Shown here piece after piece: positions 8,994-40,697 of a stretch of DNA of 41,981 nucleotides. The position numbers and the translations under genes were made by a program. A model generated the notes under the pieces. It saw only the letters and a program-made list of their open reading frames with translations, did not search any database and had not been told where the DNA came from. Origin of the DNA: a virus; the IMG/VR virus record IMGVR_UViG_3300010297_000010, positions 1-41,981 of that record. One strand, given 5' to 3'. How positions within the stretch are numbered: position 1 is the first letter of the stretch; each line of letters begins with the position of its first letter.

Positions 8994-9021
8994 ACTGGTT
9001 GTTCCTCTAAATTATGTTATG

Positions 9022-9029
9022 TATTTATC
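9022..9029 (-). promoter_or_regulatory. Late-type promoter element for the 507-aa fibre gene
   Basis: GATAAATA on the minus strand lies in the 38-base gap, about 29 bases before the ATG at 8993 and upstream of the GAGGA ribosome binding site. It resembles the T4 late promoter (TATAAATA). The same octamer occurs before gp6. Confidence 0.6.
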
Positions 9030-9031
9030 CA

Positions 9032-13914: not shown

Positions 13915-13922
13915 TATTTATT
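13915..13922 (-). promoter_or_regulatory. Late-type promoter element for the 204-aa and fibre genes
   Basis: AATAAATA on the minus strand overlaps the stop of the giant gene and lies about 20 bases before the ATG at 13895. The following bases (CAGTATAG) resemble those after the element at 41483-41490 (GTATAG). It probably starts the fibre transcript. Confidence 0.5.
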
Positions 13923-25900: not shown

Positions 25901-27987
25901 TTTAGAAACCCTGTATTTGTAAATACTGTTTCAGTTACATCTTCAATTTGATATGTAAATGAATCAGATTCTAGATTAAAGTCAAATAATATATCTCCTG
26001 AATTTCCTATATTTCTATATGATAAAGGCATACCCAATTCACTATCAACTGCACCTGTACCTTCTTTATAAGAAAATAATTTTGTGCCTCTAAAAGTACT
26101 ACTGTTGTATACTTCCATATCTCCAAAATTGTCTCCTATAGATGAATACAATGAAAACATAGGCGGTTGATTTATTTTAGTTTTTTCCTGTGCAAGATTC
26201 CAGCTATTTTTATAAAAATAAACTTTGCCTTTATTTTTTATACCTTGCTTAATTATTACATTTTGATTTTCTAAAGGTTCAGAGTCAGTAGTTTCTACAA
26301 GACTTACAACATCGTCATTTACAATTCTTACAAATTTAACTTCATATATTTTTCCGTTGACTCTTGTGTCTTTATCAGCTATGAATAGCACTCGCATACC
26401 TTGTATTAAGTCTACGCCATCGATATTATAACCTTTACTACCCTCTATAGTTGAAAATACATCTGTTGTAAATGTGTCTACTAAGTCAACGTCTTTCTTA
26501 AATTCTGTTCCGTAATTATAAAGATGTAATCCTGCTTTAAATTCAATAATAGGTCTAGATGCTTTTGCTGATTCATCGACATCTGATGTAAATTTGTTAA
26601 ATGTAGCACTTTGTTGTATGACTGATTTGTGGAACCATCTATTTGACCTAGACCAAGCGTTTCCGTCAATACTGCTTCGGTTAATAGTAATGTAATCTTT
26701 AATATCTGGATATCCTGTAGCTGTAGAATATGGAAGTCTGTCAAACTTATCTGTGTCGTAATCAATAACTTCTGTAGACGTGTAAGCTTGAGGAAGTATG
26801 AGATCATCTTCTGCAATTAGTTGTATACTTGTGCCAACGCCATCGACATAATAGTTGCCTTCAGCAAAATATTCAGGAGTAGTTTGACCTCTAAAAAATA
26901 CCTTTAATCCATTTGTAAACACAACTCCGTTAGCACTTGTATAAGTTTTTGCACCTATAATTTCATCACGTACATTTAAGTATGTGTTATCTTCTATATC
27001 GTATATTCTAAACTCACCACTCATATCAATGTCGTTAGAATTAATATAATATAATTTGTTAGGCGCACTATACGGAACAGTAAATTCAATTACACCCCTA
27101 GTCATATAGATATTAGCTATCTCTTCGCCTTCATTACCTAATTTTCTTATACCGTCTGGATATAGTGTACTTACATTATCTGAATCTTCAAATGTAACTC
27201 CGCCTAGATTAGGTAATACTATAAAATCACCTGCGTCAAATTCTGCACCGAATAGTTCTGCATCAAAAAGACCATCATTTCTTATACCGTCAGTTGTTGC
27301 AACAATAACTGCATTACCAGGAGTAAATGATCTAGTTATTGCAATAGCTATGGGATGATCTGGACAATCTATTTCAAATCTATACTTTTGTCCTCTAAAT
27401 AATTTTACACTTGGGTTACGTGTTAGTCTGTTACTGAATACATATGCATAATTGCCGCCTTGATTTTCAGCAGTTATAATGTATGTGCTTGTTACATCTT
27501 CGCTTTGACCTTCAACTGGAACACTTAGAGGACCGTTAGGTAACCAATAATACTCTCTAAAATTAATAAATTTGTCCCAATCGATATTAGGATTCCAAGG
27601 ATAGTATTCTTGTTCATTTATTTGACTATGGTCACTTACATCAACATTAAAAAATTTTAATTGGTTTATATAATCATTATAATCTTTGAAGAACTTTACA
27701 TTATCTATGTTGTCTTTAATAACTAAACTAGGTTCTAGTTGATATGACTGTCTCTGAGTCGTAATTTCAGGAATGTAAGTATCTGTTGCTCTAAAACCTT
27801 TTGCAGTTTTTCTACCTACAAAGCCACTTATTTTTTCCGCTACGCCTGGCTGAATAAGTTGATCAATTGTTGCTTGTAAAAATTTTAAATTTGCTTCAGA
27901 TCTAAAAAATCTAGGAAGAAATCTTGCACTTTGTCTTTTATCATCATCTGGAGTAGGTAGTCTAAATTCGCCTTGTGTATTTGCCAT
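13921..27987 (-). CDS. Giant mosaic baseplate/tail protein in the gp7 position
   Basis: This single 4688-codon frame follows gp6 and sits where T4 has gp7 (about 1030 residues), so it is probably a wedge or peripheral baseplate protein. The first 200 residues (FLPRFFRSEANLKFLQATID; NFREYYWLPNGP) and DRPHTHPWEMLGLTIKPKWW near 1255 are of a type seen in large structural proteins of marine T4-like phages. Five CBM5/12-like segments begin near W1565, W1822, Y2325, F2942 and Y3000 (e.g. YKGNWESTHEYRIGDIVKY). FG-GAP-like propeller blades (YGESISVSHDGKYLAVGVP) occur around 2230-2320, 2895-2930 and 3110-3290. NPGxGY-type beta units lie near 3670-3745 and 4030-4115. It has a GAAGGAAG ribosome binding site and TAATG coupling to gp6. 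No intein or tape-measure coiled coil is seen. The frame is certain; the gp7 assignment is positional. Confidence 0.8.
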   Translation of the reverse strand: MANTQGEFRLPTPDDDKRQSARFLPRFFRSEANLKFLQATIDQLIQPGVAEKISGFVGRKTAKGFRATDTYIPEITTQRQSYQLEPSLVIKDNIDNVKFFKDYNDYINQLKFFNVDVSDHSQINEQEYYPWNPNIDWDKFINFREYYWLPNGPLSVPVEGQSEDVTSTYIITAENQGGNYAYVFSNRLTRNPSVKLFRGQKYRFEIDCPDHPIAIAITRSFTPGNAVIVATTDGIRNDGLFDAELFGAEFDAGDFIVLPNLGGVTFEDSDNVSTLYPDGIRKLGNEGEEIANIYMTRGVIEFTVPYSAPNKLYYINSNDIDMSGEFRIYDIEDNTYLNVRDEIIGAKTYTSANGVVFTNGLKVFFRGQTTPEYFAEGNYYVDGVGTSIQLIAEDDLILPQAYTSTEVIDYDTDKFDRLPYSTATGYPDIKDYITINRSSIDGNAWSRSNRWFHKSVIQQSATFNKFTSDVDESAKASRPIIEFKAGLHLYNYGTEFKKDVDLVDTFTTDVFSTIEGSKGYNIDGVDLIQGMRVLFIADKDTRVNGKIYEVKFVRIVNDDVVSLVETTDSEPLENQNVIIKQGIKNKGKVYFYKNSWNLAQEKTKINQPPMFSLYSSIGDNFGDMEVYNSSTFRGTKLFSYKEGTGAVDSELGMPLSYRNIGNSGDILFDFNLESDSFTYQIEDVTETVFTNTGFLKKYSNREKFEYVNGWSSIPNISKQLVVREYLSTINQQTSFEIDVYDNPAEIIDLKVKVFVNNIRQSNKLYTLIKVNGKLFVEFKDSLPVGDFIVIKTESSQPKNKNGYYEFPINLEKNPLNEDIASFTLGEVSDHVKTIIDDLSDFDGIYPGVSNLRDIGSVDRLGKRFVKHSGPMNLSMYLTLNKNYNIVKSIEYAALEYNKFKRNFLQVAETLGFDGEKKQHVDLIISELNKDKTKNQPFYFSDMLGYKGFDRKEYKVFDVLNSFYPLSENFNLKFLSTKSILVYLNGNQLLYNKDYIFTEENFLQLLVDQQEGDIVEVYEYANTDGSYIPPTPTKLGLYPKYEPQISHDNEWLAQQGNVNAKEKYQLYGQDVKGNVGWFHPLYLSKAEAKKLDSNNETTTVELTGCNSIFFAPKSQFKITKDENNTCTLYPIGKAMIIGHDGSRISAYEDYRDELILELEKRIFNNIKSNYRTNLFNKDKFVGGKFRKGISKSKIDRLLLPDFIKWQSNTGIDYTSNLFYSNENQFTYNYSKTTSAIDGNFLPGYWRGVYVDLYDTDRPHTHPWEMLGLTIKPKWWEDTYGKAPYTSNNNILWKDIEEGRIKDPTLIVQIDEKYARPGITKFIPVDSQGKLLSPISTGYAKNTVIRDTDIAFTFGDYAPVENAWRNSSEYPFSLVKAMLLNKPSMFCALGFDVSRTKKNLSNQIVSSYTGRHFSLTNLVFPNTYTDNEKVLTSGLVNFIHGLIGSNILKTYDEFQEDITSIQNKISFKLGGFTDKAKLNIVLDSKNPAAQNTASIFIPDENITVYTSTSTPIDSIVYSGIILERSSKGYIVSGYNEENPVFYYYKTVSTNNDSTIVVGGKLENSVNWSPRQFYPKGQIVVNENIYRATNSFTSGNEFSLDNLIQIPEIPTIGGSRGILKKEFNYTNVEEIKYGHVLRDIQDVVDLLIGHGRYLEVNGFNFNYFDESTQTITNWTNAAKQFIEWTQQGWSNGTSISLSPGSFEIDFKRDFLIVDDIYDNFYKYSLLDENGLPLNRKFSSILRDNNSFSLTVKNTDNGIYNIKLPLVQKEHVVIIDNETVFNDIIYQPSTGYRQERLKLIGYRSDNWNGSLNIPGFIYDDAELTEWQPWQDYQIGALVKNKEFYYVARYNVPGTKVFDYSYWTQLNSQPESKLITNFDYRINQFADFYDIESDGFDEEQNRLARHLIGYQKRDYLANIINDDVSQYKFYQGMLQDKGTKNAIDKLFNSLRGESDTVQVYEEWAVQVGKYGSYENLQQIEIPLDESKFRESPQAIEILNYLPNDTFDNVFRVRTHELLDKPSGNSLNLFPTKVLEEFIESRGYVHEDDVEYKTQSIDDLKIIDNNQLNPGEYIWITDKAPNNWTVFQIVDSLFIVREMRINTELDTLDRTTATLTVRQNSLYSIVQGDLIAVTGAQIYNLYGFFEVVQIDYETIVIEIPESNDFLDFTEEEFTLSVLRTVRVQDFDQYNNIAQNSIFDNQKVWIDNYENNSWAVLDNQPVYSSVTKEYNPNDLQDSSNLPDVDQDFTKSITFTTDNKEVYVSSPGSDGGEVFYYRRNQDNDDLGLAQTLANSNDFYDGAQSNYGESISVSHDGKYLAVGVPNASFVRTFYKGIFDQTKNYNKWDIVKYKESLWEAKASISSKKDATTFSTFDNYVQIKNRIQDDTFNLLSTGNPELPNTNVDHFLVRAPSDMFQGSAEGDIVKLKWNEKTALNGGVLYSPWNGNISGLSKSVIEDFHTIDSKIEAVIKITDIIQTPSVGSFLRLFTTNLGVSTALIDYIAVDSSNAVIYLKDIKGVLNVEGTAYLEDPNSGLITAIGDYSKIEYGFEEEFNGFWKINVAQYNNGQTYFEEGKGLVYADLIPQADYNEASKIRNTYYNISDTEISVGNFLLENRRSSIIEQISSPDNETNKFVVRVGTDFTPAVNSSFNFYVNQDITNDFANAGFTYDILNKTQVVSDIWDGYIDFENDVNVAQIGEQEFEVGDIIIDNQFALDTNLLISETPLAPFNKAEVVYVKTFGSAQENRRRVYIKIIEGDWQLKQNVQIVRLIRERGNADIGRIRTVNNQVDYANSVIVPTGNFVGKFLVFEAENNFSFSQSPTLINNEYYFYTEMFGLAGAPTQADIPSSLNRNWSQVYNITTPEGESVKSSDNLNPGVENQGLVIIYYKSAPDQYIRVAQIVSEQSYDVVNSQFGKTVKIISTDTGYKLYAASNSSIEYFENSPIDENRFRGSWNRTISYNIGDIVFFNGKYFEVQQTITPADQSDGSILNINVFKPTSWRRLIDPYYKGNWESTHEYRIGDIVKYNNLYYKANTNFATSSVLPDSDNNLWALVSDVVYQNYLTPQSTDSSQIAIENFQLNDTATSLAIKILKTAPDSSVTKEIRIYGSTISGRYISTQTIIPPTNNTEFGMSYDFNSSGSFLAIAEPHNSDNGTNVGKVYLYKNEAGIYNLTQTLDPPKNSVSLNFGYSISFAEDVLSVASFAGIVLISTIFDADETLFDLDQTEFQKVNYDPGVIYVYEKIKDKFIFAESISYDNVTKELRETVAINNNHIYIGVPAKENNVYVGALYDYRKKINVKGWNVSRQLINPVDLDKIQGAFLYNKRTNSIITYLDYIDPIQGKIAGPADKNINYKVPFDPAYYNVGDNADTMFWAENHVGTVWWNTGTSTFTYPYQGDINYQRDNWNELQPGATVDVYEWVETDLLPDDWDNIADTVQGIENEVTGTTLYGNTQYSKKFIFDEKSQTFAEKYYYWVKNTKIIPAKSNRTLTTLDIARLIAAPRQQGYRYLSMLSSNRLVLNNCNGLIYDKDIVLAIRYSETDVSNQNNHSAYKLITDGLETSGPTSDIELKWFDSLIGFDVNNRAVPDADLTEKQKYGVQSSPRQGMFKNRREALKQYVERVNSVLKNQLVIEKFDISNINDRDPLPTFESGAYDVKIDTLDQLSLVGTKVKQAQLEPIVVNGAIINVKIVNPGRGYKKAPTYKIKGIGQDARLDFTINNLGQITNVKVIYSGKNYSESTQIIVRQHTVLVEADSEVDNKWSMYSYDDEQFKWNRIKVQSYDVTKYWEYVDWYESGYNVLTTTDFNVNNTYELSFIDDKLGDIIKVANVGTGGWAILEKVNVGTENDYKTIGRENGTIQFKDNLYKTETSNSGFDNKSFDSFLFDIDPRFELRVILETVKNNLFIKDLRIEYNQLFISTLRYILTEQTPDWFFKTSFIKVKHLAGNLEQDLTYNVDNLENYKKYIEEVKPYKTNIREFISNFQKTELAPTMTTDFDLPSYYDSDVNKILPVSVTVEDGTIVTDNRKLNEGLYKNWLENIGSSIIRIDILNPGTEYTVAPKVEIVGNGYGATAQAYVGYGTITNIVITNKGHGYTQIPTIKITPPPNSQGVPATAIAVLGENLTRSFQTKVKFDRNSVENILDINALGNTETFTGSGSKTKFDLLFPINLDKSTIQIVVNSVEILSSQFTVTNIKDTSKSYTRYLGQIELNNAPALDSTVSISYVRSIDMLNAVDRIKFAYAPGENAFGNDIAQLMDGVDYGGVEIKSFEFAANFGWDTKGWFNDVWDEIENTIEDEIVYMDDSTGIVLSKPLEDNIAYNVYRVGYDSIGNIVNNVRLDDPNFGTPQQTNLNATCLTIIGDGSTQVLYLDDLDATTTKAADEDRVAFIVRKTTSDGSILFDPKTYDLDLDGGNLNYSNAKGITAEEIIVDGDSFVTPTTSKSVEELVPGQVQDTLDIQVTTLGDDSTIVRYRIFKDILNRTTYSRIDSSPTKLVKPITETSLSIEVEDGTNLIEPDRSKNIPGVLFINKERIEYLIKEGNVLKQLRRGTLGTGVASVHPKGEQVYLADISKFIPYVDVTQSQTATNVDTINLNFLPLSTDEFEVFVNGIRLNPKPFAKFDAAAALDSPEADSIVPADYQIEYYNNQSNARIVIKSPSILNIEQKNIVIVRKKGNIWHRLGESITETETSIGFFLRAGN

Positions 27988-30900
27988 TAGTAATTACTTC
28001 CTTCACCATTATTATTTGCAACATTTCCGACTGGATTGTAAGTTACAGATGTAGATTGTGTGCCTTCTCCTGTAATTATAGATGCACCACTTGTTTGATT
28101 TATTGTGCTCACTGAGCTACTGCTAGGTAAAGTAGTAGGAGCATTTGCACTCCTTGTTTGTACACCTTGCATATTACTAGATATACTAGTAATTACTAAA
28201 CCAGACGACTGTAAGTTTGTTGATGTATGCTCATCGATAATTTCAATATTATCTACTGTTGCAGCACTTAAAAATATTTCATTAGATTCTGATTTTATTT
28301 CGAATAAACTGCCAAATACTTGATCAACTTGCTTTGGCACAACAACTATACTAGATAAGTTAGGAGATAAATTATTCATAATATACGCACTAAGCTCTTG
28401 GAAGTAAAATACATCACCAAAGTCCCAATTTTCTATTGCAAAGAATTGTGTAATCAATTGAATAATATTTGATTTAAGTTGATTGTTGTTAACAGATATT
28501 CCTGCATTTTTTACAACTTTAAAAATTACTTGTAATCTTGGATCAGCTTTTTCTCCAAATAGCATTTTATATGTAACTGGATGAAATACAACTTCGTCAC
28601 TGATACTTTTAATTTGTTTAATACTATTTCCGTAATTCCTAAATAATTCATCAGAACTAGGTGGTAACGGTAAAGTAGTTAATCCGCCATTAATATATTT
28701 CCTTACCTGTGTGTCATAATCTTTAGTTAATACATATGTATCTAAAATATTACTACTTGCAGGATCTATTCTATACTCAGAATCAGCTACATGTTTATAG
28801 TGAAATTTTAAATCTGCTCTACCTACAAATGCTCTATATTCATCGGTAATAGTCATATTGTTTTGTGACTTGTTTAATATTTTAAATAAATCAAAATCTA
28901 CTATATAAAATATTTGTCCATCTACTTCTGCATTTACATTAATAGGATCTAATGCATCGTTCTGGCGAATTTTTACTGTTCCGTCTGTATTATCAAAATA
29001 TTTGTAATCATCAACACCGTCTACAGAACTGTATTTTTTCTGAAATATAAATCCTGTCTCATCTACAATGTCTTTAAATAATTCTGGATTATCTGATATA
29101 CCGTCATCGTCACTATCATATAAAGATAATTCAATACGTCTTGTGTCATTATAGCCTTCAGTATCTTTATATGATGAAGAAATACTCCAGTCAAAGTCTT
29201 TATTAAAAGGACTTAAACTGTTAGGTTGTGTGTTAATACCTAAAACAGTAATTTTATCTTGTTCAATCTTACCTGTTTTTGTATTATAAACTTTATCAGC
29301 ACTATCAAAGAAAAATCTTACTTCTGATTCGCTTTCAAATACATATCTTAAATTTCTGTAGGTAACATTAAAACTTTGTCCGTCAGTTCGAAAATAAAAT
29401 AACCAACTATTATCTTGATTAGTTCTAGAAATATCGCCTTGACGTTGTAAACTAAAAGGAGTATAAGTGTTCAAATTATCACTTGTTATAATTTTCCATT
29501 CGCTTGAATTTTGGTCAAACCTTAATCCAAAATCTTTATATGCAAATGCTCTATCTATAATTTGTTTTTTAACATCAGAAATTATAGAGTTAGCATATTT
29601 AGGTAATATTTCAAATAATATTGCACCGTCTGGTATTATATCATTAAAAACAATCGGTCCAAATCCGTCATCGTCAACAAGTGTGCCATCCGCATCAACT
29701 GTCTTTACAGTTGTCCATACATATAAACTGCTTCCTGCATGATCCGGTGCTCCTTGCATTAACTTTCCGTTTTTCATAAAATGATATCCATCCGGTGCAG
29801 CAAATTTACACATTGCACCAGGTTTAATATTTTTTAAAGCGTTAGTTGTATACGTGCCAACACTATAGACACTAGATGTTGCAGTGTTTCCATTAGCACT
29901 TAAGAATATTTCAGTTAAATCTAGTATTTGTTCAAAGTAACCAGTCGATCTATTTGTTTTAGATGTTGATTGGCGCCAGATAGCATTTAAATCTGTAGTG
30001 TTTACTTTATCAAAATTTTCATTATAATAATTTTTTAGACCGTTACTAGATATTCTTGATTCTATTTGACTGTAAATTATTCCTTCTATGTCGGCTTGTG
30101 TTGTAAAGTTAAAGGAAAAATTTTCTAAATATTCTTCTCTGTATAATACACCATCAGATGCAAATATACTTGTAGTTGAATATTTTCCTGTAGGATCTGT
30201 CAGATCAAAGTATCTGCTTATTCCACTAGATACTCTGTTTACTGTTTTAGTTTTTATAATATTTTGATCTATGCCTAAAGGTCCGATATTATAATCTTCG
30301 GCTGTAATTAATCTATTCTGAGTATAATAATTAGAAGGTGCATTTTGTTTTATGTCAGCACTTGACTCGCTTTCTTCACTATTATTGACTGCACTTTTTA
30401 AACTTAAACCAATAGTCAACGTTTCTTGAGAATTGTTACGACTAATATAAGGAATTTGTAAATTTATATTCTGTAAATTTCCAGGATTTATAATAATACT
30501 GTTGTTATCGCTTGTTCTATAGTAAACTCTAAAGTTACCTGAAGGTAAATTACCAAATACACCGTCACTAAAAACTAAATTTATTCTATCATCTGTCCTA
30601 GTTGATACAGTATAAACATTTTTTGTATCTTTAAACAAGCTATTATATATTATATTATTACCTTCAACTGAATCTAATTTAGTCCATAATTCAGATTCGA
30701 AATTATTAGAATCTACAGAATATAACCATACATCACTATTGTTAATATTAGTATCATCTATTGATACTATTTGATTCGGAACAGGAGTGCTTGAATTAAA
30801 TGTTGCATTTTCTAACTGTCCTTGTCTGAAGTGCATAAAAAATCCTGTATTAGAACTTCCTGCGCCTTGGCTATCATCTCTATAGACAAAGGATGGATTA

Positions 30901-31598
30901 TTTCCAGGTAAAGGTGCTTCTTCAACTATTGTGTCATTTTCTATACCTGTGCTTACTATTTCAAACCTAGTAGATATGCCTTCTACAGTTTTACTAAATC
31001 CGTACACTGGAACGTCTGTATTAAGTGCGTTGAATCTATATTGTTCAGTTAGCACTCCTTCAATATTTGCTGAAATAGTAGGAGACCCTATGCCTTCGGC
31101 GTTCGGCAAAGCTGCATTAATAATTTTTACAAACTGTTCAAAATAATTTGGATTAGATCTATCATTCCAAAGAATTTTTGTACCTTTTAATCCTTTTCCT
31201 GTACTATCGATAATATTTTCTGTTGTAGATATAGAATCAAATTTTAGCAAACCATTAGCAGGTTTATTTCTTTTTGGATTATAAGAAATAAGTTTAGCTA
31301 ATCTTAATACACTTTCTCTACGCTCTGCTGTTTCTAAAAAGTTTTCTCTAGCGTTAAGATCCATTCTAAAGGATAAGTTTTGTCCTAAGAATGCAATCAA
31401 ATCGATAAGCGCAAGATATTCAGAGCTTTCAATGTAATCGTTAAAGTCTTCTGGATAATTTTGACGCAGATAATTAATCATTGTTCTACGTAGATTGTCA
31501 AAGTCGTAACTTTGGAAGTCTGCATTACTAAAAGATTGATAAATTTTCTTCCAATCTTCAGTAGCAATTACACGAGATTGCCTATCGGTTGATGACAT
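27987..31598 (-). CDS. 6: Baseplate wedge protein gp6
   Basis: This 1203-residue protein is a T4 gp6-type wedge subunit, the protein that forms the ring around the hub. Supporting segments are in the N-terminus: YDFDNLRRTMINYLRQNYPE, then SSEYLALIDLIAFLGQNLSF, RMDLNARENFLETAERRESV and LRLAKLISYNPKR, followed by a baseplate J-like region (INLVFSDGVFGNLPSGNFRV; APSNYYTQNRLITAEDYNIG). It is about twice the length of T4 gp6 (660 residues); the extra length lies in the C-terminal half, which is Asp/Ser/Asn-rich and ends in a low-complexity Ser/Thr/Asn tail. It follows gp25 as in cyanophages. The AAGGA ribosome binding site is partly inside a possible hairpin, and a late-type promoter lies 25 bases upstream. 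Confidence 0.88.
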   Translation of the reverse strand: MSSTDRQSRVIATEDWKKIYQSFSNADFQSYDFDNLRRTMINYLRQNYPEDFNDYIESSEYLALIDLIAFLGQNLSFRMDLNARENFLETAERRESVLRLAKLISYNPKRNKPANGLLKFDSISTTENIIDSTGKGLKGTKILWNDRSNPNYFEQFVKIINAALPNAEGIGSPTISANIEGVLTEQYRFNALNTDVPVYGFSKTVEGISTRFEIVSTGIENDTIVEEAPLPGNNPSFVYRDDSQGAGSSNTGFFMHFRQGQLENATFNSSTPVPNQIVSIDDTNINNSDVWLYSVDSNNFESELWTKLDSVEGNNIIYNSLFKDTKNVYTVSTRTDDRINLVFSDGVFGNLPSGNFRVYYRTSDNNSIIINPGNLQNINLQIPYISRNNSQETLTIGLSLKSAVNNSEESESSADIKQNAPSNYYTQNRLITAEDYNIGPLGIDQNIIKTKTVNRVSSGISRYFDLTDPTGKYSTTSIFASDGVLYREEYLENFSFNFTTQADIEGIIYSQIESRISSNGLKNYYNENFDKVNTTDLNAIWRQSTSKTNRSTGYFEQILDLTEIFLSANGNTATSSVYSVGTYTTNALKNIKPGAMCKFAAPDGYHFMKNGKLMQGAPDHAGSSLYVWTTVKTVDADGTLVDDDGFGPIVFNDIIPDGAILFEILPKYANSIISDVKKQIIDRAFAYKDFGLRFDQNSSEWKIITSDNLNTYTPFSLQRQGDISRTNQDNSWLFYFRTDGQSFNVTYRNLRYVFESESEVRFFFDSADKVYNTKTGKIEQDKITVLGINTQPNSLSPFNKDFDWSISSSYKDTEGYNDTRRIELSLYDSDDDGISDNPELFKDIVDETGFIFQKKYSSVDGVDDYKYFDNTDGTVKIRQNDALDPINVNAEVDGQIFYIVDFDLFKILNKSQNNMTITDEYRAFVGRADLKFHYKHVADSEYRIDPASSNILDTYVLTKDYDTQVRKYINGGLTTLPLPPSSDELFRNYGNSIKQIKSISDEVVFHPVTYKMLFGEKADPRLQVIFKVVKNAGISVNNNQLKSNIIQLITQFFAIENWDFGDVFYFQELSAYIMNNLSPNLSSIVVVPKQVDQVFGSLFEIKSESNEIFLSAATVDNIEIIDEHTSTNLQSSGLVITSISSNMQGVQTRSANAPTTLPSSSSVSTINQTSGASIITGEGTQSTSVTYNPVGNVANNNGEGSNY

Positions 31599-31654: not shown

Positions 31655-32095
31655 TTAACTTAAGGCTTCTCTATCAAATCGCAACATAAGTTCTTCTGAT
31701 ATATTGTAAGGTAAAAATACTAATAATGCACTTACTTCTATACCACTTTCGTAAGTATCAACTATAACTGATTCAGCTGTTACCCTATCATCATAATTAA
31801 TTATTTCTGCTACATCACTTATAATTGCGTCTCTGTTTTCATTAGTAAACGGTTCAAACAACATATCCCAAATAATTGTACCAAATTGCGGATCGCTTAA
31901 TTTTTCACCTTTTCTAATATGAAAGTGATTTATTATGTCTTGTTTTATAAGTTCAAAATCATAAAGAGCAAATCCTTCATTATTTTCATTTATTGTAGAA
32001 AATCCTCGATAAGCACTTCCTTGAGAAACCCTCTTATTTCCTGTATTTGCTTTTACTTGTACTCTTTTATAAAGATTTTTTTCTAATGTACTCAT
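31655..32095 (-). CDS. 25: Baseplate wedge subunit gp25
   Basis: This 146-residue protein belongs to the gp25/gpW-like family. The diagnostic core is in the middle: YDFELIKQDIINHFHIRKGE, then PQFGTIIWDMLFEPFTNENR, then a C-terminal strand pair (YESGIEVSALLVFLPYNISE). T4 gp25 (about 132 residues) has the same length and joins gp6 and gp53 in the inner wedge near the sheath. The order gp5, gp25, gp6 is typical. An AGGAAA ribosome binding site lies just before ATG, and nine bases separate it from the gp5 stop. The extra N-terminal 40 residues are basic (KRVQVKANTGNKRVSQGSAY). Confidence 0.9.
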   Translation of the reverse strand: MSTLEKNLYKRVQVKANTGNKRVSQGSAYRGFSTINENNEGFALYDFELIKQDIINHFHIRKGEKLSDPQFGTIIWDMLFEPFTNENRDAIISDVAEIINYDDRVTAESVIVDTYESGIEVSALLVFLPYNISEELMLRFDREALS

Positions 32096-32104
32096 TTATA
32101 TTTC

Positions 32105-35005
32105 CTATTTTTGAGCGAATTGATTATAAAATGCGCTTCTTACAACGTTTGTTCTTCGTTTAACGCCCTTATGGTATGCTGCTAATACTTCTGGTGAACA
32201 TAGCCAATAATACCAACCTTTGCCATTTGATGCAAATTTTCTATCAATACCCACAATATCAACATGCATACCGTCCGGAATTCCCGGCATATATCCGTGT
32301 TTAGATCCTATACCCTGTCCACCGTTAGCAAAGAATTCTTCAACAAATTGAGTAAATCTTGGAGTATCGCGTTTAATACGTTTACCAGTTTCATAGTCAA
32401 AAATTTGTATATCAGCAGCACTTCCCCAGTCGTGGCGCAATGAACCTGTACGCACTCTAACATTTCCTAAGCAACCTCTTCCTTGACTATCTAATCTATG
32501 AGTAGGATCCTTTCTCCATTCTGACTTAGGCATTTGTCCAGCACTTATTATCAAAACCTTTGTATCACATATAGTCGCTGTTTTATCCAACAACTGTAAC
32601 ATTCTAGGCTCTAATGGATACCACCTAGATTTACCGCTTTTTTCTTTTAAGTTTTTAATTTCAGGTTGATATGTTACTCTATCTGTTTCTGTATAACCTT
32701 CTATTTTAGGCGGCACATAAGGCTTATACCCTCTTGCTCTTGCATCAATCGCCAGCATATCTCCACTATCTCCTACTTTGATAGTATCGCCTTCGTCATT
32801 TTGCCATACATCGCCTGTATTGCCTTCTTCGTTAGGAATATCAATGGATGTCATGTCTCCGCCAGATCCAGATACTCGAACACTTGTTTGAGATATTGAT
32901 CCGCTTTGTAAGAATGTATCTGGAGAAATAAATCTATCAGCGGAAACCATTAATCCTGGTGATTCTCTGTCAGTTTGATCCTTTTTAAATCCTAAAGGAT
33001 TAAGATTTTCATGATGTGTCCATGGCTCGTGCTGCGGTGCTCTAGGAACAATCGATGTGTAAGGAACAGGCTGCGAAACTCCTGGTAGTACATACGGTAA
33101 AGTAATTTCAGGTAATGGATTAACTATTGTAGGTAGTGCAACATTAGTTATACTATCACTTGCTGTAATTGCTTTTGCAGCATTAGCAGGAAGTAATGCA
33201 TCTACACCCTCAGTAGCAGCAGTTGCACTTCCTGATAATCCGCTATTTAAGTGTATTTCGCCTGCATCAGCTGCTATAACTCCAGCAGCTTGTATATTAA
33301 CATTTAACCCGGTTGTATGATAAGAACTCTGTCCTGAAACTACATGATATGTAGTTCCAGATTCTTCAAAAATAGATAATTCTGCAAGACTATTAATATT
33401 TGCAGTTTTACTTTGATTAAAGATGTTAGTTTCTGCAATATTATGAATTTCGCCAGTTACAGTTTTGTTAAAAATACTTGTTTCTGCGGTATTGTGTATT
33501 GATCCTGTTGTAGTTTTATTAAGAATATCTGTTCCTGCTGTAAAATTTATAGATTCAACAGCATTTGTTAAGACACTTATACCAGCTCTGTAATTTAAAG
33601 TACCCTCTGCAGTCAGCATATAGTTACCTGCAACATCATTATAAAAATTTGAGCCAGATGATTGATATATTGATTGAGATGCTTTTAAATGTAATGCACC
33701 ATTCATTGCTTCACTATACATATGAGATCCGCTAGTAAAACGAGTGCTTTTTCCTGAATGAGAAAAAATGTCATCGCCTACAGACAAATGACTACTAGTT
33801 CCTACTGTAACTTTGTGTTCTCCTCCTACTAGATGACTTGTATCAAAGGCACTTTCAATTTGTACTCGGCCGCTTTGCTTATTTTGTTCAAAATGTTTAA
33901 AGTCACTCCATCTTGCACTAGCTTTTATATTAACATTTCTGCCGGCTTCCATATTAATATCTCTTTCAGCAGTAATGTTTAAATCAGTATCAGTCATAAT
34001 GCTAACACTATCTTGTGCATGAATATCGATTTTTCCATCACTGGTCATTTCTATCCAAGTTGTGCCTCTAGCATTACCTATGTAAATTAAATCTTCTGAA
34101 TTGTGCATTAAAATTTGATGACCAGTTCTAGTTCTAAATCTCATAAGCTCGTTTTGAGGAATTGTTTCGTCGCCTCCTAATTCTTGTGCTCTTTTGTTAA
34201 CATAAATCGGAGGACCGTCTTCAGCATGAGTTGCTCTGATGAGATTTTCATCTCCGTCGTCCATTACAAAACTAGATCCGCCGAGTCTGTTATACGGGAT
34301 ATCTATTCCGTTTATATCATCTCCATATTTAGCCTTTGGATGATTTTCTCTTTTATCCAAAGGACCTGGAGTGTTCATTCCAAATACCATACTAGGAGCT
34401 TCTCGTCTAGAACTAGAAGTAGTTGTTCCCCTAGCCTCGTCATCTAATAATCCTTGTACTTGTAATACCTCGGTAAAATCTTTGTTATAAGGCTTTTTAA
34501 AAAGTTGAGGATCAACAGCAGTACCGTCTTCTAATTTTTTATTATATTCTCCTACGGGTAATTTTTTATTTTTTAAATCATCTGGTGTGTTTTCTGTATG
34601 TAATGTTGTAGCTGGATTTGCTCCAGGAACCATCATATTCATATTGTTATCTTGTACACATCCTATCCAATAACCGTATGCAGACATTCCTTCAGCAAAT
34701 ATAACTAACACCCGAGATCCTACATCAGGCGGGACAGCCCAGAAGCCATAACTTTTTTGAGTGCTTTCAAAATTATCATTTTCTTTTAGCCCGAAAGCAG
34801 GAGTAGCACCATAAAATGGAGACAAATACTTTGCAATTGTTAATTGGCCAGTTCTTTCTGGTATACCACTTGACGAAGATCTTCTAATAAGTTCTACTTC
34901 TAGTGTGCCTTGATGATAAGGGTCTAAATGACTGACAATAATAGCTTCAAATGGACCACTATTATTAATAACACCATCTTGTAAAGTTGTTCTTTTATAA
35001 CTCAT
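32105..35005 (-). CDS. 5: Baseplate spike gp5 with C-terminal M15-like peptidase
   Basis: This 966-residue protein is the central spike. It opens with a gp5/VgrG-like OB domain (GPFEAIIVSHLDPYHQGTLE; GFWAVPPDVGSRVLVIFAEG). A conserved loop (LGGSSFVMDDGDENL; FRTRTGHQILMHNSEDLIYI) leads to a beta-helix needle from about 310 to 620, with three 17-residue repeats at 492-542. The T4 lysozyme domain is absent between OB fold and needle. Instead the C-terminus (about 790-966) has M15-type zinc peptidase motifs: H858-DWGSAA-D865 and D911-GM-H914-VD. H-x6-D, then D-x2-H, is the spacing of the T5 endolysin L-alanyl-D-glutamate peptidase ligands and catalytic Asp. It probably cuts peptide cross-links as the tube passes the wall. 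ATGA coupling joins it to the 779-aa gene. Confidence 0.85.
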   Translation of the reverse strand: MSYKRTTLQDGVINNSGPFEAIIVSHLDPYHQGTLEVELIRRSSSSGIPERTGQLTIAKYLSPFYGATPAFGLKENDNFESTQKSYGFWAVPPDVGSRVLVIFAEGMSAYGYWIGCVQDNNMNMMVPGANPATTLHTENTPDDLKNKKLPVGEYNKKLEDGTAVDPQLFKKPYNKDFTEVLQVQGLLDDEARGTTTSSSRREAPSMVFGMNTPGPLDKRENHPKAKYGDDINGIDIPYNRLGGSSFVMDDGDENLIRATHAEDGPPIYVNKRAQELGGDETIPQNELMRFRTRTGHQILMHNSEDLIYIGNARGTTWIEMTSDGKIDIHAQDSVSIMTDTDLNITAERDINMEAGRNVNIKASARWSDFKHFEQNKQSGRVQIESAFDTSHLVGGEHKVTVGTSSHLSVGDDIFSHSGKSTRFTSGSHMYSEAMNGALHLKASQSIYQSSGSNFYNDVAGNYMLTAEGTLNYRAGISVLTNAVESINFTAGTDILNKTTTGSIHNTAETSIFNKTVTGEIHNIAETNIFNQSKTANINSLAELSIFEESGTTYHVVSGQSSYHTTGLNVNIQAAGVIAADAGEIHLNSGLSGSATAATEGVDALLPANAAKAITASDSITNVALPTIVNPLPEITLPYVLPGVSQPVPYTSIVPRAPQHEPWTHHENLNPLGFKKDQTDRESPGLMVSADRFISPDTFLQSGSISQTSVRVSGSGGDMTSIDIPNEEGNTGDVWQNDEGDTIKVGDSGDMLAIDARARGYKPYVPPKIEGYTETDRVTYQPEIKNLKEKSGKSRWYPLEPRMLQLLDKTATICDTKVLIISAGQMPKSEWRKDPTHRLDSQGRGCLGNVRVRTGSLRHDWGSAADIQIFDYETGKRIKRDTPRFTQFVEEFFANGGQGIGSKHGYMPGIPDGMHVDIVGIDRKFASNGKGWYYWLCSPEVLAAYHKGVKRRTNVVRSAFYNQFAQK
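33380..33532 (-). repeat. Three tandem 17-residue repeats in the gp5 needle
   Basis: Three consecutive 51-base units encode TDILNKTTTGSIHNTAE, TSIFNKTVTGEIHNIAE and TNIFNQSKTANINSLAE (residues 492-542), followed by a partial fourth (LSIFEESG). They are part of the beta-helix. The DNA copies are degenerate, so this is an old duplication kept by protein structure. Confidence 0.8.
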
Positions 35006-37341
35006 ACTACTACTATTCTTCCTGTACCATCATTAGCAAATTCTTTTTCAGGATCATCATAGAAGACATCACCGTCATATTTGACTTTTATTTTTTCTTC
35101 GTCAGGTGCTTCGCCAATTTCCGCACCATCTTGGTCGTATATCTTTCCGTCTCTTTCACTATATGTATTATTTACAATTTGTAAGATTTCTAGTGAGTCA
35201 GAACTTTCTATTAATTTTTCAAAAGACGCAACTTCATTTTCTTGACTAGAGTTACTTTCGGTAAAAGTTTGCGGTAATGGCTTATCTGAAACTCCTAAAA
35301 GACTATCAGTCTGTACTTCAGCTACTTGAGTAGATTTTATTTCATCTATAGGTAAAAATACAGTTTGCCATATTTCTGCTTTGTTAGAAACATCTTTAAA
35401 TTGATTCATATATTCATAACGTTTATTAGAGTTTGGTTCTGTAAATGGATCAACTCCTGTAGCTTGTATAAATACATTTCTTGTACTTGTTAGATCAACT
35501 ACATTTTGTTTTTCTCCAAAAAACGCAGCTGCCGTTTGGGCCGATGTTATAGCATCGTCTAGTAATTGAGGATTACTTACTATATCTAAATCTATAACTT
35601 TTGATATATGCTCAAAGTTTTGTTTACCTGTAATACCTAAAAATCCTGCAGGAGCAAATGTACTTCCTCCATTGTTTTTTAAAATTTCATCATAAAACTT
35701 TTCAGGTGATGATTTTAAATCATTAAGTTGTGCATCGGAAAAATTTGCTACACTTGGTCCAAATCTATTCCTTATTTCATTATTCGGAACATTTACATAA
35801 GATTTTACATACCCTGTTGTAAGACCTGAAATGTTTTCGCACATACCTACAATATTACATACGCTATTTAAATCATCTATTCCTACTTTACTTAATTGAT
35901 CTTTGATTTGTTTAGCATTTTCTATCTTAGTTTTATCGGTAATTTCTATTGGAATTCCCGAAGGCCCAGCAAATATAGTCTTGTTTACTGAATTTTGAAC
36001 TTTTGGATTATCGCTTTCTATTGCGACTCCGGTCTGCGATGTGCCAGGCGGAGCATAATCAGGAAAGTTTCTTGTACTTGTTTTTCCTAAATGACAAACA
36101 TCTCTTATTTTTTTTCCAGTTCTAAAATCATAACGATCATCTTGTGGATCTATTCTTTCATATGTATAGGCATTTTCTACAAATGGTAACTCAGAAGGTG
36201 TTGAAGGATGAGAATTTATAAATTTACCACCTGTAGTAATTTGTCCGTTACTTACTGCATGTTCAGTAATTCTTTTCTGATTAGAACCTATATTTGGACT
36301 AGCTGTGTTGTTGCTATTTGTTGTTACATCAACTCTTGTGCTTTTTCCTGTGCCTCCTTTTTTGGCATCTTTTATTGATTGTAAAAATTCATCTGGATTG
36401 CCGTGCGCAGAATTATTTAAAACACCAGAGTAATAACTTTCGCCTTTGGCTTTTCCGTTAATTGGTATTGGTAAAGGTATACTAGCAAATTCTTTACATA
36501 GATTTATCATAAAATCAATATCAGTAAATTTGCCTAGTTTCCATTTTTTATAATTCCTAACATTATATAATCTTCCTAAACAAATTACATCCTGTATTTC
36601 TGGTGTAAAAACTGTTAGATCTTTGTCTAGTCCTAGATATTTTATTGTTTCTTCTAAAGGAGATTTTATAAACTGATATCTACCAATTGCACAACTTTCC
36701 GTCTTTCCAGTACGTTTTTTTTGTTCAGAAAGAAGTTCATTTTGAAATTTTTGCACTCCTCTTAAAGTTTTCGATGTAAGTGTAGCATGTTTACTATCGC
36801 TGTAATGTGCATAATAACCATACCTACCAGATTCTCCTTTTGCTATAAGATCTAATATTGCCCTATCAACAGAATCAATAACAAATGCAGTTGTACTAAT
36901 AGGATCTTCTTCTACAGCATCTGGTAATTTACTACTATCTATAATATTTAAAATTTCAGATGTAGAGGCGTCTTTTTTAATTGTAGTAGACAAATTAAAA
37001 GAATTAATTCTAGCAGCATTACTGTCACCTGCAATAATTGCTCCTGGATAAGAATTTTTTATTTCTGCTGCGCTTTCTTTCTTTAACAATTCAGGTTGTT
37101 CTTTTCCGTGATATAAACCGTCTACACTATAAACAGTTGCACCTGCGCTAGTTGCTGCATTTTTAACTAAATCATGTAATTCTGGAAATCCGTATTCTTT
37201 GTCTGGATTTGGTGGTACAATTACTATGTTTGTGTAGCCTTTAGCTTTCGCATTTTTTACTATAGATGTAACATTTTCTGCTGTTTTAGATGTATCATCT
37301 ATATCTGATGTTCCAGCAGCTATTATAATTGTATCTGACAT
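35002..37341 (-). CDS. Baseplate protein with SGNH-like, lambda R-like and GH19-like lytic domains
   Basis: This 779-residue protein sits between the hub-like protein and gp5. Residues 1-130 resemble an SGNH hydrolase with blocks out of order: IIIAAGTSDID (5-15), DGLYHG (74-79), then GDSNAAR (105-111). Residues 160-320 match lambda R-type muramidase (GH104): AILDLIAKGESG with E170 at the place of lambda R E19, AIGRYQFI (218-225), FTPEIQD (245-251) and a final FASIP. Residues 490-615 match phage GH19 endolysins: MCENISGL with candidate catalytic E502, FSDAQLNDLKSSPEKFYDEI, AGFLGITGKQNF, and DLDIVSNPQLLDD before AAAFF. The acidic C-terminus is unassigned. Probably a virion-borne, multi-domain wall lysin. 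It overlaps the upstream gene (TAATG) and gp5 (ATGA). The lambda R match is the strongest; SGNH the weakest. Confidence 0.7.
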   Translation of the reverse strand: MSDTIIIAAGTSDIDDTSKTAENVTSIVKNAKAKGYTNIVIVPPNPDKEYGFPELHDLVKNAATSAGATVYSVDGLYHGKEQPELLKKESAAEIKNSYPGAIIAGDSNAARINSFNLSTTIKKDASTSEILNIIDSSKLPDAVEEDPISTTAFVIDSVDRAILDLIAKGESGRYGYYAHYSDSKHATLTSKTLRGVQKFQNELLSEQKKRTGKTESCAIGRYQFIKSPLEETIKYLGLDKDLTVFTPEIQDVICLGRLYNVRNYKKWKLGKFTDIDFMINLCKEFASIPLPIPINGKAKGESYYSGVLNNSAHGNPDEFLQSIKDAKKGGTGKSTRVDVTTNSNNTASPNIGSNQKRITEHAVSNGQITTGGKFINSHPSTPSELPFVENAYTYERIDPQDDRYDFRTGKKIRDVCHLGKTSTRNFPDYAPPGTSQTGVAIESDNPKVQNSVNKTIFAGPSGIPIEITDKTKIENAKQIKDQLSKVGIDDLNSVCNIVGMCENISGLTTGYVKSYVNVPNNEIRNRFGPSVANFSDAQLNDLKSSPEKFYDEILKNNGGSTFAPAGFLGITGKQNFEHISKVIDLDIVSNPQLLDDAITSAQTAAAFFGEKQNVVDLTSTRNVFIQATGVDPFTEPNSNKRYEYMNQFKDVSNKAEIWQTVFLPIDEIKSTQVAEVQTDSLLGVSDKPLPQTFTESNSSQENEVASFEKLIESSDSLEILQIVNNTYSERDGKIYDQDGAEIGEAPDEEKIKVKYDGDVFYDDPEKEFANDGTGRIVVV

Positions 37342-40300
37342 TAAAATCCACCTCTCATCCGAAAACTTCCATCTCTCTTAAACGCTTCAATTTTACTATT
37401 TGTAAATGCAGTTGATGATTGAGAAAATGTGCCTGTTGGAGTGTTTGTTTGATTCTGTACTCTTTGTAGTTGTAGATTCTGAGTAAATTGTCCATTATTA
37501 AAAGTATGTGTTACTCCCCAGCAATTAAATAGTCCGCTAAAAGGTTTTACAAGTTCTGGCATTCCCATTAGAAATTGTCCATTAAGTTGTGGATAATCTA
37601 AAGGTGTTTTAAAATTAATAACAATGCTTAAAGGATGAAATCTTGTATCAGCTCTACCAGCTATAGTTAAATTTTTTCCTACAACTTTCTGTCTACCATT
37701 TCCTGCATCTCTAGGAATATAATACGGATCTCCCCAAATTGTTAATTCTGCGGTTACCATGTTCAATGGAGAATTTATGATATCTGAATGAAATTTCTCT
37801 GCCCTATTTCTTTTAGCCAACGCCTCAGGATCTGTTGGTTTTTCTGCACCGTTTAAAAATTCTTGCTCATACTTAGTTCCAAGTTGGCTTGTGCCTGTTA
37901 ATTCCCTAAGCTCTCTACTAGTCCTAGTTTCAAGTTTTTGGCTTTGATTCCTATCTACAATTTTTGTGTTATCGCCTGCACTTACACTACCTTTGTCGTA
38001 ATCTGCTAATACTAATTCATAAAATGCATTATTAAAATTTAAACTAAAATCTAAAACATCTTCATTTTTTCCAGAATATATATAATTGTATTCTTTTTCT
38101 GCAGATGATTTTCTTTCGGGTATTCCTGTCGGAGCTTCTTGCGACCCCATAACCGTAGATTCACACACTAAAGAAGGAACAACACAATATACATAGGTCA
38201 TTCTAGGACGTCCTAGCTGTGGATTTATAGCATCTTGGTCCTCGATAAAAACCATTTGATCTATTTTTAGATATCCTTTTAAGCCAGCGGCAGGATTTTT
38301 ATCAATAGCTTCTTGAACATACTTAGTATCTAAGCATACATCTGTAATAATTTGAGAAATTCTAGAATTTTGTTTGTATTGATAACTTATTTCATTTCCG
38401 AATTCTGGTAAAACTTCAAATTTAACTTGTCCTGGACCATCAGTTCTTAATTCAGTGCGCTGCTTTTTATTCATAGTATTTTTACGTCTTGCTACATCGT
38501 CAGCTACTGGACTTGTTCCTATAATATTAATATTTTCAGGTCTACTTCCCCAAATTTTTAAATTCTTAAAATATGTTGTTGACGGAGAATATGTGCGATT
38601 AAAAATAACACCAGTGTCACCAGTGAATTGTATGTCATCTTGCATATTCAATGAAACATTAGATTTTGAATTATTAATTCTATTTTGTTCTTGCTGGTCA
38701 AATAATAAACTTTCTTGTTCTGTTATATTTAGGCCCTTTAATGCATCGTAAATATCTGCAGAATCTTTTGGAAATAATATAAGATATCTATCATAACCTG
38801 CAATTAAATTATTATTTTCAGCATTCTCAAACAAAGCATTTACAGAAGCAGTGACACTTTCTTCTCCAGTGTTTAACACCTCATGTGCAAGTGTACCTTT
38901 TGCTTTTATATCTGTTAATACTATATCTACTGAATCTTCAAAGGCTATTTCAGTAAACGCTACAGCACTGCAAGAATATCTGCTACCTGCTCCGTCGACA
39001 TCAAAATCAATACGTGTAATCATTATAGGAATGTAACTAGGAGGAATTTTACTAGGAATAGCATCTCCATTTACATTATAACCTGTAAATTCAATTTTAA
39101 TGATAAATGGCAATTTATTAAAACTACCGTAGTTTAAATCATTAGCTGTTTCTCTTATTGCTTCTAAAAATTGTCCCATAGAATATGGTTCAATAATATC
39201 AAATGTAATTGCGGTTCCAACTGACACTCCTGTATTAGGATTTGGTGCTACGACTGATTCAATTCCTAAATTATCTATAAAATACTCTAAATGTGCTTTT
39301 TTATCGGCTCGATCTAGTGTCTCTTCAGCTGAAGTCCTTTGTCTAGAATCTAAATTTCCTCCTCCTGATTTACAAATTAAACGTGCTATCTTTCCTTCTT
39401 TAACATATGTGTCAGGAAAATTCAACTGATCAGGTGATAATACACCTAAAGAAATAACGTAATTATATGAACTAAATTCTCTTAAAGGGTTTCCTAATTT
39501 TCTAGATCCATCAGAACCTAGTTTTTCGGGTATCCCTATATTAGTTAATGTATTTGTAAACAGATCAAAGTTAGGAATTAATGTATTATACAAATTTGAC
39601 ATATTTGCTGTAAAATCTGTAGTTGTGTTATCTACATCCGGATTGATCCAATTTTTAGGATTAAATATTTTTACATTCTGAGCATTTGTAAAATTAGTAG
39701 TAACATTACCTAAATTTTTTCCTAAAACATTTCGTATTGCCTCGCCTGCTAACCCTGACAATATATCATTTGGTGAAGATTTACTAAGCTGTGCAGCAGA
39801 ATTCATTAAACTTATGCCAGCACTTATTTTTCCTAACGGAGAATTTGTGTTAGATAATGTTTGAAAAGAATTTATAGCATTTATTAATGGTGTATCAGCA
39901 GATAAACTGTTAAGAACATTTGATAAAGGATTAGTTGCGTTAGACGTAGCAGTAGACATTCCTTGCGATGATACATTAGTAGCATAACCAACACGTTTTG
40001 CAATTTGATCTGCTGTTAAATTTTTAAATTGAGATTTTATAGCAGAGTCAAGGCTAGGTATTTTTTGCTGTAAAGAAGAAATACCAGCTGCAAAAGCAAA
40101 TGATTGTAAGTTAGACTGAATTACACTATTTTGTAATTTAGGATTTATAGTTTTTCTTGCTGCATCAACAAGAGCCTGTACTTCATTTACATTAGGATCT
40201 GTTGCAGTAACAAACGGTGCTACATATTTTGAATTTTCATCTGTAACCTCACCTAAGGAGTAATTTACATTTGAACCTATAGAACTTTTTAATCCATTAC

Positions 40301-40403
40301 TTGCCTTATTTGTACTAGTGCTTTTCGTGACAGTAGATGCTACACTGTTAATCGTTGTAGTTGCAAGTGCATTAATTGCAAAATTTAACAAATTATTTGC
40401 CAT
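37341..40403 (-). CDS. Baseplate hub-like structural protein
   Basis: This 1020-residue protein stands where a hub component is expected, before the lytic protein and gp5. The first 300 residues are rich in Asn, Ser, Thr and Ala with helical stretches and no repeats of fixed length. A structured core starts near FSSYNYVISLGVLSPDQLNF and includes IPIMITRIDFDVDGAGSRYS. The C-terminal 120 residues (RADTRFHPLSIVINFKTPLD; PQLNGQFLMGMPELVKPFSG; CWGVTHTFNNGQFTQNLQL) have the pattern of gp27/gpD-type hub proteins, where a late beta-domain closes around the tube axis. That likeness is by eye, and I do not assign gene 27. It abuts gp53 directly (TAAATG). Other tail-tip structural roles are possible. 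Confidence 0.6.
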   Translation of the reverse strand: MANNLLNFAINALATTTINSVASTVTKSTSTNKASNGLKSSIGSNVNYSLGEVTDENSKYVAPFVTATDPNVNEVQALVDAARKTINPKLQNSVIQSNLQSFAFAAGISSLQQKIPSLDSAIKSQFKNLTADQIAKRVGYATNVSSQGMSTATSNATNPLSNVLNSLSADTPLINAINSFQTLSNTNSPLGKISAGISLMNSAAQLSKSSPNDILSGLAGEAIRNVLGKNLGNVTTNFTNAQNVKIFNPKNWINPDVDNTTTDFTANMSNLYNTLIPNFDLFTNTLTNIGIPEKLGSDGSRKLGNPLREFSSYNYVISLGVLSPDQLNFPDTYVKEGKIARLICKSGGGNLDSRQRTSAEETLDRADKKAHLEYFIDNLGIESVVAPNPNTGVSVGTAITFDIIEPYSMGQFLEAIRETANDLNYGSFNKLPFIIKIEFTGYNVNGDAIPSKIPPSYIPIMITRIDFDVDGAGSRYSCSAVAFTEIAFEDSVDIVLTDIKAKGTLAHEVLNTGEESVTASVNALFENAENNNLIAGYDRYLILFPKDSADIYDALKGLNITEQESLLFDQQEQNRINNSKSNVSLNMQDDIQFTGDTGVIFNRTYSPSTTYFKNLKIWGSRPENINIIGTSPVADDVARRKNTMNKKQRTELRTDGPGQVKFEVLPEFGNEISYQYKQNSRISQIITDVCLDTKYVQEAIDKNPAAGLKGYLKIDQMVFIEDQDAINPQLGRPRMTYVYCVVPSLVCESTVMGSQEAPTGIPERKSSAEKEYNYIYSGKNEDVLDFSLNFNNAFYELVLADYDKGSVSAGDNTKIVDRNQSQKLETRTSRELRELTGTSQLGTKYEQEFLNGAEKPTDPEALAKRNRAEKFHSDIINSPLNMVTAELTIWGDPYYIPRDAGNGRQKVVGKNLTIAGRADTRFHPLSIVINFKTPLDYPQLNGQFLMGMPELVKPFSGLFNCWGVTHTFNNGQFTQNLQLQRVQNQTNTPTGTFSQSSTAFTNSKIEAFKRDGSFRMRGGF

Positions 40404-40697
40404 TTAGGCTCCTAAACTTTGTTGTAAATTTTTTCCTTGCGGCAAATAAATTTTAGTTCCTGCTACAAAGTCAAATATAGGATCTTTTAAAACATCAACA
40501 TTTCGTTGTGCAAAAACCCACCATAAATCTTTAGAACCATATAGATCAAACGCTAATAGATCAGGTCTATATGTGTATACATTTGTAATTTCATATAAAA
40601 TATCATCAGATGAAACAGGTATAGGTCTTGGTTTAAAAATATCTAAATAACCTGCTACATTAATTTCTGTATTTCCATAAAAACTAAGATTAGACAT
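40404..40697 (-). CDS. 53: Baseplate wedge protein gp53
   Basis: This 97-residue protein matches the gp53 wedge family of T4-like phages. The diagnostic block covers the second half: YEITNVYTYRPDLLAFDLYG, SKDLWWVFAQRNVDVLKDPI and FDFVAGTKIYLP. T4 gp53 is about twice as long (196 residues); shorter versions such as this one look like the core domain alone, which also resembles LysM-like folds. In T4, gp53 clamps neighbouring wedges with gp25 and gp6, both of which are encoded nearby. Its ATG overlaps the stop of the upstream gene by one base (TAATG), and the next ATG follows its stop with no gap. Confidence 0.85.
   Translation of the reverse strand: MSNLSFYGNTEINVAGYLDIFKPRPIPVSSDDILYEITNVYTYRPDLLAFDLYGSKDLWWVFAQRNVDVLKDPIFDFVAGTKIYLPQGKNLQQSLGA

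Follow-up and report, generated by a model that had tools for sequence, protein, structure and literature searches.

The DNA analysed here (hereinafter, the window) consists of the 41,981 bases of the viral record IMGVR_UViG_3300010297_000010, has a GC content of 32% and comes from an uncultured, T4-like, marine phage. According to ORF calls and Pfam and PHROG searches, it carries a cluster of baseplate genes, all on the minus strand, in the following order: (i) gp53-like; (ii) a 1020-aa protein at the gp27 position; (iii) a 779-aa protein; (iv) gp5; (v) gp25; and (vi) gp6 (Table 1). The ORFs of 779 and 966 aa lie exactly where a preliminary description of this DNA had placed them. The former overlaps the gp5 ORF by 4 nt and the upstream 1020-aa ORF by 1 nt. 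It is the place of the 1020-aa protein, and not a profile match, that suggests its identity as gp27.

Searches of the window proteins in Pfam and NCBIfam returned almost no matches and, in consequence, relatives, most of them uncultured, were used for the domain calls. The structural model of the 779-aa protein was poor (pLDDT 56.8). A PDB fold search with this model gave no significant match, and a fold search in a viral library led to cyanophage hub proteins and to proteins named GH19.

Two other regions of the window, both on the minus strand, can be described. Adjoining the baseplate genes is a single ORF of 4688 aa (13921-27987); it matches phrog_10938 (virion structural protein; E=0) and is likely to encode a giant tail or adhesin protein. 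Three tandem proteins of 507, 628 and 788 aa (7470-13281) have in common the phrog_14394 and phrog_15511 matches of their N-termini and differ in their downstream parts, a pattern resembling that of fibre families whose tips have been exchanged.

Table 1. Features of the baseplate cluster in the window (aa, residues of the protein concerned).
Feature	Position	Strand	Evidence
gp6-like baseplate wedge protein	27987..31598	-	phrog_10646 1e-294
gp25-like baseplate wedge protein	31655..32095	-	PF04965 4.4e-8
gp5-like spike, 966 aa: OB domain, beta-helix, C-terminal peptidase	32105..35005	-	phrog_13211 baseplate hub/tail lysozyme 5e-53; DUF2345 2.9e-5
M15/LAS-like peptidase domain of gp5, aa 790-935 (H858, D865, H914, D916)	32201..32638	-	Alignment; AlphaFold2/Foldseek
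gp5 N-terminal region with OB domain, aa 9-213	34367..34981	-	phrog_13211; Phage_base_V sub-threshold
779-aa hub-associated protein: SGNH-like, GH104-like lysozyme, anchor motif, GH19-like, tail	35002..37341	-	ORF; architecture common to full-length relatives
GH19-like domain core, aa 470-625, catalytic set incomplete	35467..35934	-	PHROG; PDB profile; hhalign; alignments
Anchor motif YxYxxIDPxDDRYDFxTGKKI, aa 388-422	36076..36180	-	Relatives; motif-only DNA scan
GH104 (lambda R)-like lysozyme domain, aa 151-345	36307..36891	-	PHROG endolysin 1e-15; 14-member alignment; lambda R alignment
E170 codon, predicted catalytic Glu (= lambda R Glu19)	36832..36834	-	Alignment to lambda R; relatives
SGNH-like domain, aa 1-146, permuted block order III-V-I	36904..37341	-	Alignments; PF13472 sub-threshold in relatives
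1020-aa protein, gp27 position	37341..40403	-	phrog_11190 virion structural 3.5e-10; adjoins anchor gene in relatives
gp53-like baseplate wedge protein	40404..40697	-	phrog_7145 3e-22

Enzyme-like domains of the 779-aa protein and gp5

Four wall-acting domains had been proposed for these two neighbouring genes, and the motifs quoted in support are present (E170, AIGRYQFI, FTPEIQD, E502, AGFLGITGKQNF and the C-terminal H/D/H set). The ancestry of all four is borne out here (that of the SGNH-like one as likely), an agreement well beyond chance, and only the GH104 and M15 domains keep the residues predicted for cutting.

The lambda R-like region stands as a GH104 domain on the basis of the PHROG match, the relatives and the alignment to lambda R, the latter taken from the lambda genome. 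In this alignment, E170 faces Glu19, the catalytic residue of lambda R. The residues E170, G-x-Y-Q and QD are invariant across 14 aligned relatives. In a later scan, Glu occupied the E170 column in 39 of the 41 distinct relatives where this column was readable, both exceptions (L153 and L198) having Asn; the G-R-Y-Q and Q-D motifs are present in the window, and their G, Y, Q and QD are invariant in 42 distinct relatives. Similarity was also seen to phage muramidases, whose annotation is either lysozyme-like protein or muramidase. It is well supported that aa 151-345 constitute a GH104-type domain whose predicted active site appears intact.

The C-terminal domain of gp5, described before as M15-like, was upheld by its model, its Foldseek matches and its invariant ligands, with no match to Pfam M15 or VanY. 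The AlphaFold2 model, built from 11 relatives, reached a pLDDT of 81.9, and the top four Foldseek matches were LysB4, Ply500, MepA and VanX (best E 1.3e-3; probability 0.99 for LysB4 and Ply500), with the T5 endolysin and ChiX lower. The zinc ligands of the H-x6-D ... H pattern are found as H858, D865 and H914, invariant in the 11 relatives, and D916, two residues past the last His, is invariant too; the invariance of these four residues extends to relatives whose M15 domain belongs to the gp27-position protein. In classical M15 enzymes, the last His is preceded, three residues earlier, by an acid. This position is D911 in the window, Glu in one relative (L011) and other residues in the remaining relatives, so that the acid is not conserved. 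The modelled fold and the predicted ligands confirm the gp5 C-terminus as a putative M15/LAS-type peptidase. Escherichia coli MepK was considered as kin of this domain and rejected, as the resemblance is only at motif level and hhalign was not significant.

Regarding the N-terminal domain of the 779-aa protein, the window copy had no significant match in Pfam, and a PDB profile search gave only noise. The native domains of L153 and L198 match PF13472 at 3e-4 and 1.3e-4, respectively, and the L153 domain, once re-ordered to undo the circular permutation, at 2.7e-5, all under the curated cut-off. An early reading, according to which the domain was not SGNH at all, was dropped once L153 and L198 showed GTND and PWHLT. 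SGNH ancestry in permuted order is likely, as judged from these matches and motifs. As for the active site, the window keeps S107 (GDS), the block III Asn is S12, and the column of the catalytic His holds Leu. The Ser column is Ile in L011, Gln in ACG-2014d and Lys in S-SSM4, and none of the members examined has the complete set (Ser, block III Asn, block V Asp/His). A tblastn search of the window domain against named phages found nothing; the ACG-2014d copy does find S-SSM4.

The GH19-like domain of the window matched GH19 in Pfam at E=0.097 and in PHROGs at 8e-8 and 1e-6; its profile match to PDB GH19 enzymes (1.5e-5) extends across 57 profile columns, and hhalign against six phage GH19 sequences gave 98.5%. 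The L153 and L198 copies match PF00182 at 1.3e-4 and 4.8e-5, under the cut-off. Two alignment registers were considered: (i) a gap-free register, in which the catalytic Glu columns fall on I504 and K513; and (ii) a shifted register, picked by eye on the grounds that a Tyr/Phe four residues further on then aligns, in which E502 is the first Glu and Y511 stands at the second. A first reading, that both Glu had been lost, was softened since E502 suits the first Glu in the second register. Whichever the register, at least one of the two catalytic Glu is absent. The RGRG ... Q cleft motif is also lost (APAG and G instead), and the E502 column is Asp in L011. GH19 ancestry is confirmed, with an active site that is predicted to be incomplete. 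On the anchored 779-aa protein and its relatives, this domain was found only in the window clade and in the L153/L198 branch.

The latter two (809 aa for L153; 621 aa, partial, for L198) represent a sister lineage. They keep the SGNH Asn and His as well as the QGRG and Q of the GH19 cleft, but GDH replaces GDS, and their lysozyme Glu is Asn. Judging by these residues, decay in this lineage differs from that in the window lineage.

Proposed anchor motif and domain movement

Between the lysozyme and GH19-like domains, the 779-aa protein contains a putative anchor motif that the preliminary description did not mention and of which no description was found. It appears in most gp5-related loci, whether the protein has the SGNH-like domain, the lysozyme, the GH19-like domain or none of them, and was not detected in more distant loci (for instance, L066-L084). 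In L061-L065, the gp27-position protein carries it as a C-terminal fusion, and there is no separate anchored gene. In other loci (L033-L055 and L070), it is found in small proteins of 229-390 aa, upstream of gp5, in which none of the four enzyme domains was recognised; PHROG searches with two of these small proteins gave nothing.

A motif-only DNA scan for the anchor core, covering 2.9 million viral contigs, returned 78 viral loci with 57 distinct proteins, some loci repeating contigs already in the set. The anchored gene lies between the gp27-position gene and gp5 in 53 of the 78, and 74 adjoin gp5 and/or the gp27-position gene; among the remaining four there are ends of contigs or loci. A lysozyme, whole or in part, is borne by 74 of the 78 motif-scan proteins, a count to be read knowing that the pattern required Arg after DDRYDF and, hence, under-samples the enzyme-free branch (DDRYDFE).

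The enzyme domains also change place among hub proteins. The M15 domain is on gp5 in the window clade, L059 and L106, and on the gp27-position protein in L021, L057 and L126; the lysozyme is at the gp5 C-terminus in L060-L063 and on the anchored protein in others. Because its domains fuse to the gp27-position protein or to gp5, the anchored protein is argued to be part of the hub. From this distribution we infer that the motif may be a tag by which exchangeable wall enzymes dock at the hub. A broader proposal can be put forward only tentatively, as its chances appear to be below even: in uncultured T4-like phages forming a large group, a DDRYDF tag would hold exchangeable wall-cutting modules at the hub, the catalytic domains varying by lineage and the decayed ones acting as wall-binding parts. 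The motif and its exchangeable partners are the part most worth following. The motif provides a sequence handle for metagenome searches for these proteins and would be a testable tether to the hub.

A predicted wall-penetration cassette and its alternatives

The reading that we consider moderately probable is that the window contains the wall-penetration cassette of a T4-like hub, with an anchored 779-aa protein in the virion, GH104 and M15 domains that cut, and SGNH and GH19 domains that have decayed. Synteny and fusions suggest that the 779-aa protein is probably part of the virion, where the DDRYDF anchor would keep it at the hub. Upon sheath contraction, the gp5 spike would open the outer membrane; the GH104-like domain, through E170, would cut glycan strands; and gp5, through its C-terminal M15/LAS peptidase, would cut stem or cross-link peptides, so that both would jointly open the wall where the gp5 lysozyme of T4 works alone. 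The SGNH-like and GH19-like domains, as decayed kin of enzymes, would most likely be retained as binding or structural modules. This reading draws on the baseplate gene order, the overlapping ORFs, the GH104 Glu, the M15 fold and ligands, the residue losses, the anchor distribution, the domain movement and the precedent of phage A-1(L) (see below); it is weakened by the low pLDDT of the 779-aa model, the blank Pfam search for M15, the unconserved M15 acid and the change of E170 to Asn in L153 and L198.

The preliminary description had instead all four domains active at the point of entry, one of them de-acylating, two cutting glycan and one cutting peptide. Homology supports each of the four domains, GDS is kept at S107 and E502 provides one GH19 Glu in one register; nevertheless, acyl removal is not supported, given the replaced block III Asn and His and the fact that no member examined has the full SGNH set, and of the two glycan cuts only the predicted GH104 one is supported, as the second GH19 Glu is absent in both registers, RGRG and the cleft Gln are gone and E502 becomes Asp in L011. 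Activity of the whole set is, then, very improbable. The preliminary description had named unassembled active sites as a ground for its own refutation; on sequence grounds, this applies to two of the four domains, the 779-aa model being too uncertain there to show it structurally. Predicted glycan-cutting and peptide-cutting domains do occur on adjacent genes of the hub operon: the initial recognition of domains was good, and its functional claim would hold for two of the four. Decayed domains of this kind caution against equating each detected fold with an enzyme.

The 779-aa protein might also be a non-virion, lysis-phase endolysin encoded among baseplate genes, considering that the families matched by its lysozyme domain are named endolysin and that this domain resembles phage muramidases. 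We regard this as unlikely, since the ORF overlaps hub genes and its place is kept across lineages, 74 of the 78 motif loci are beside hub genes, and elsewhere the gp27-position protein bears the anchor, and gp5 the lysozyme, as fusions. Unlikely, too, is a mainly structural role in the hub or its assembly, in which the anchor would be the conserved feature and the enzymes optional passengers, some lineages lacking wall cutting at this place. The small anchor proteins of several lineages, in which no domain of the four was recognised, are consistent with such a role, but 74 of the 78 motif-scan proteins, from a scan that under-samples the enzyme-free branch, bear lysozyme with its catalytic residues nearly always kept. 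If the cassette reading is correct, T4-like phages beyond the E. coli group rebuild their wall-penetrating tip, where modules that move from one hub protein to another apparently take the place of the T4 gp5 lysozyme.

Comparison with known hub enzymes

As the preliminary description stated, T4 has one tail lysozyme domain, located in gp5 and termed its only known virion enzyme (PMC3004832). T4 gp5 and the window gp5 share an OB domain and a beta-helix spike, and the T4 wall enzyme is delivered at the tail tip (PMC3004832); in contrast, Pfam and PHROG searches detected no lysozyme domain between the OB domain and the helix of the window gp5. Multi-domain tail lysins have been surveyed in enterococcal phages (PMC10194240). 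The hub of phage A-1(L) has lysozyme, endoglucanase and peptidase domains, of which the endoglucanase and the peptidase are active and are weakened by point mutations (PMC10966104). Its gp15 resembles the window as a myophage hub with several hydrolytic domains, a likeness judged on domain content, but it has all of them on one hub protein versus two in the window.

Among cyanophages, the hub-region 'endolysins' of ACG-2014d and S-SSM4 (Kyanoviridae) have, on a single protein, an SGNH-like domain followed by a GH104-like one, in the window order, whereas the anchor motif and the GH19-like domain were not detected in them; in ACG-2014d, the preceding gene, other than gp5, bears a VanY/M15 domain. 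Synechococcus phage BUCT-ZZ01 has a T4-type gp5 with GH19 (1.7e-8) and a C-terminal M15_3 match (0.0086, sub-threshold), and in this it is close to the window, but its GH19 is within gp5 and keeps, in the alignment, the RGRG/Q cleft and both Glu columns. S-CREM1 and S-SRM01 also combine a hub-region GH104-like lysozyme with a peptidase (VanY or M23), in their case on one protein and off gp5, with SGNH-like and GH19-like domains undetected. The earlier statement that no T4-like baseplate with this set had been described is valid for the exact set only, given the overlap with A-1(L), ACG-2014d and BUCT-ZZ01: the window is a new combination of known kinds of hub wall enzymes, less unusual than first claimed.

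In Pseudomonas phage Milchi (L117:4937-5941), a PAAR-motif protein (4.5e-11) encoded downstream of gp5 has an M15_3 match just under the cut-off, possibly a peptidase on a spike tip protein.
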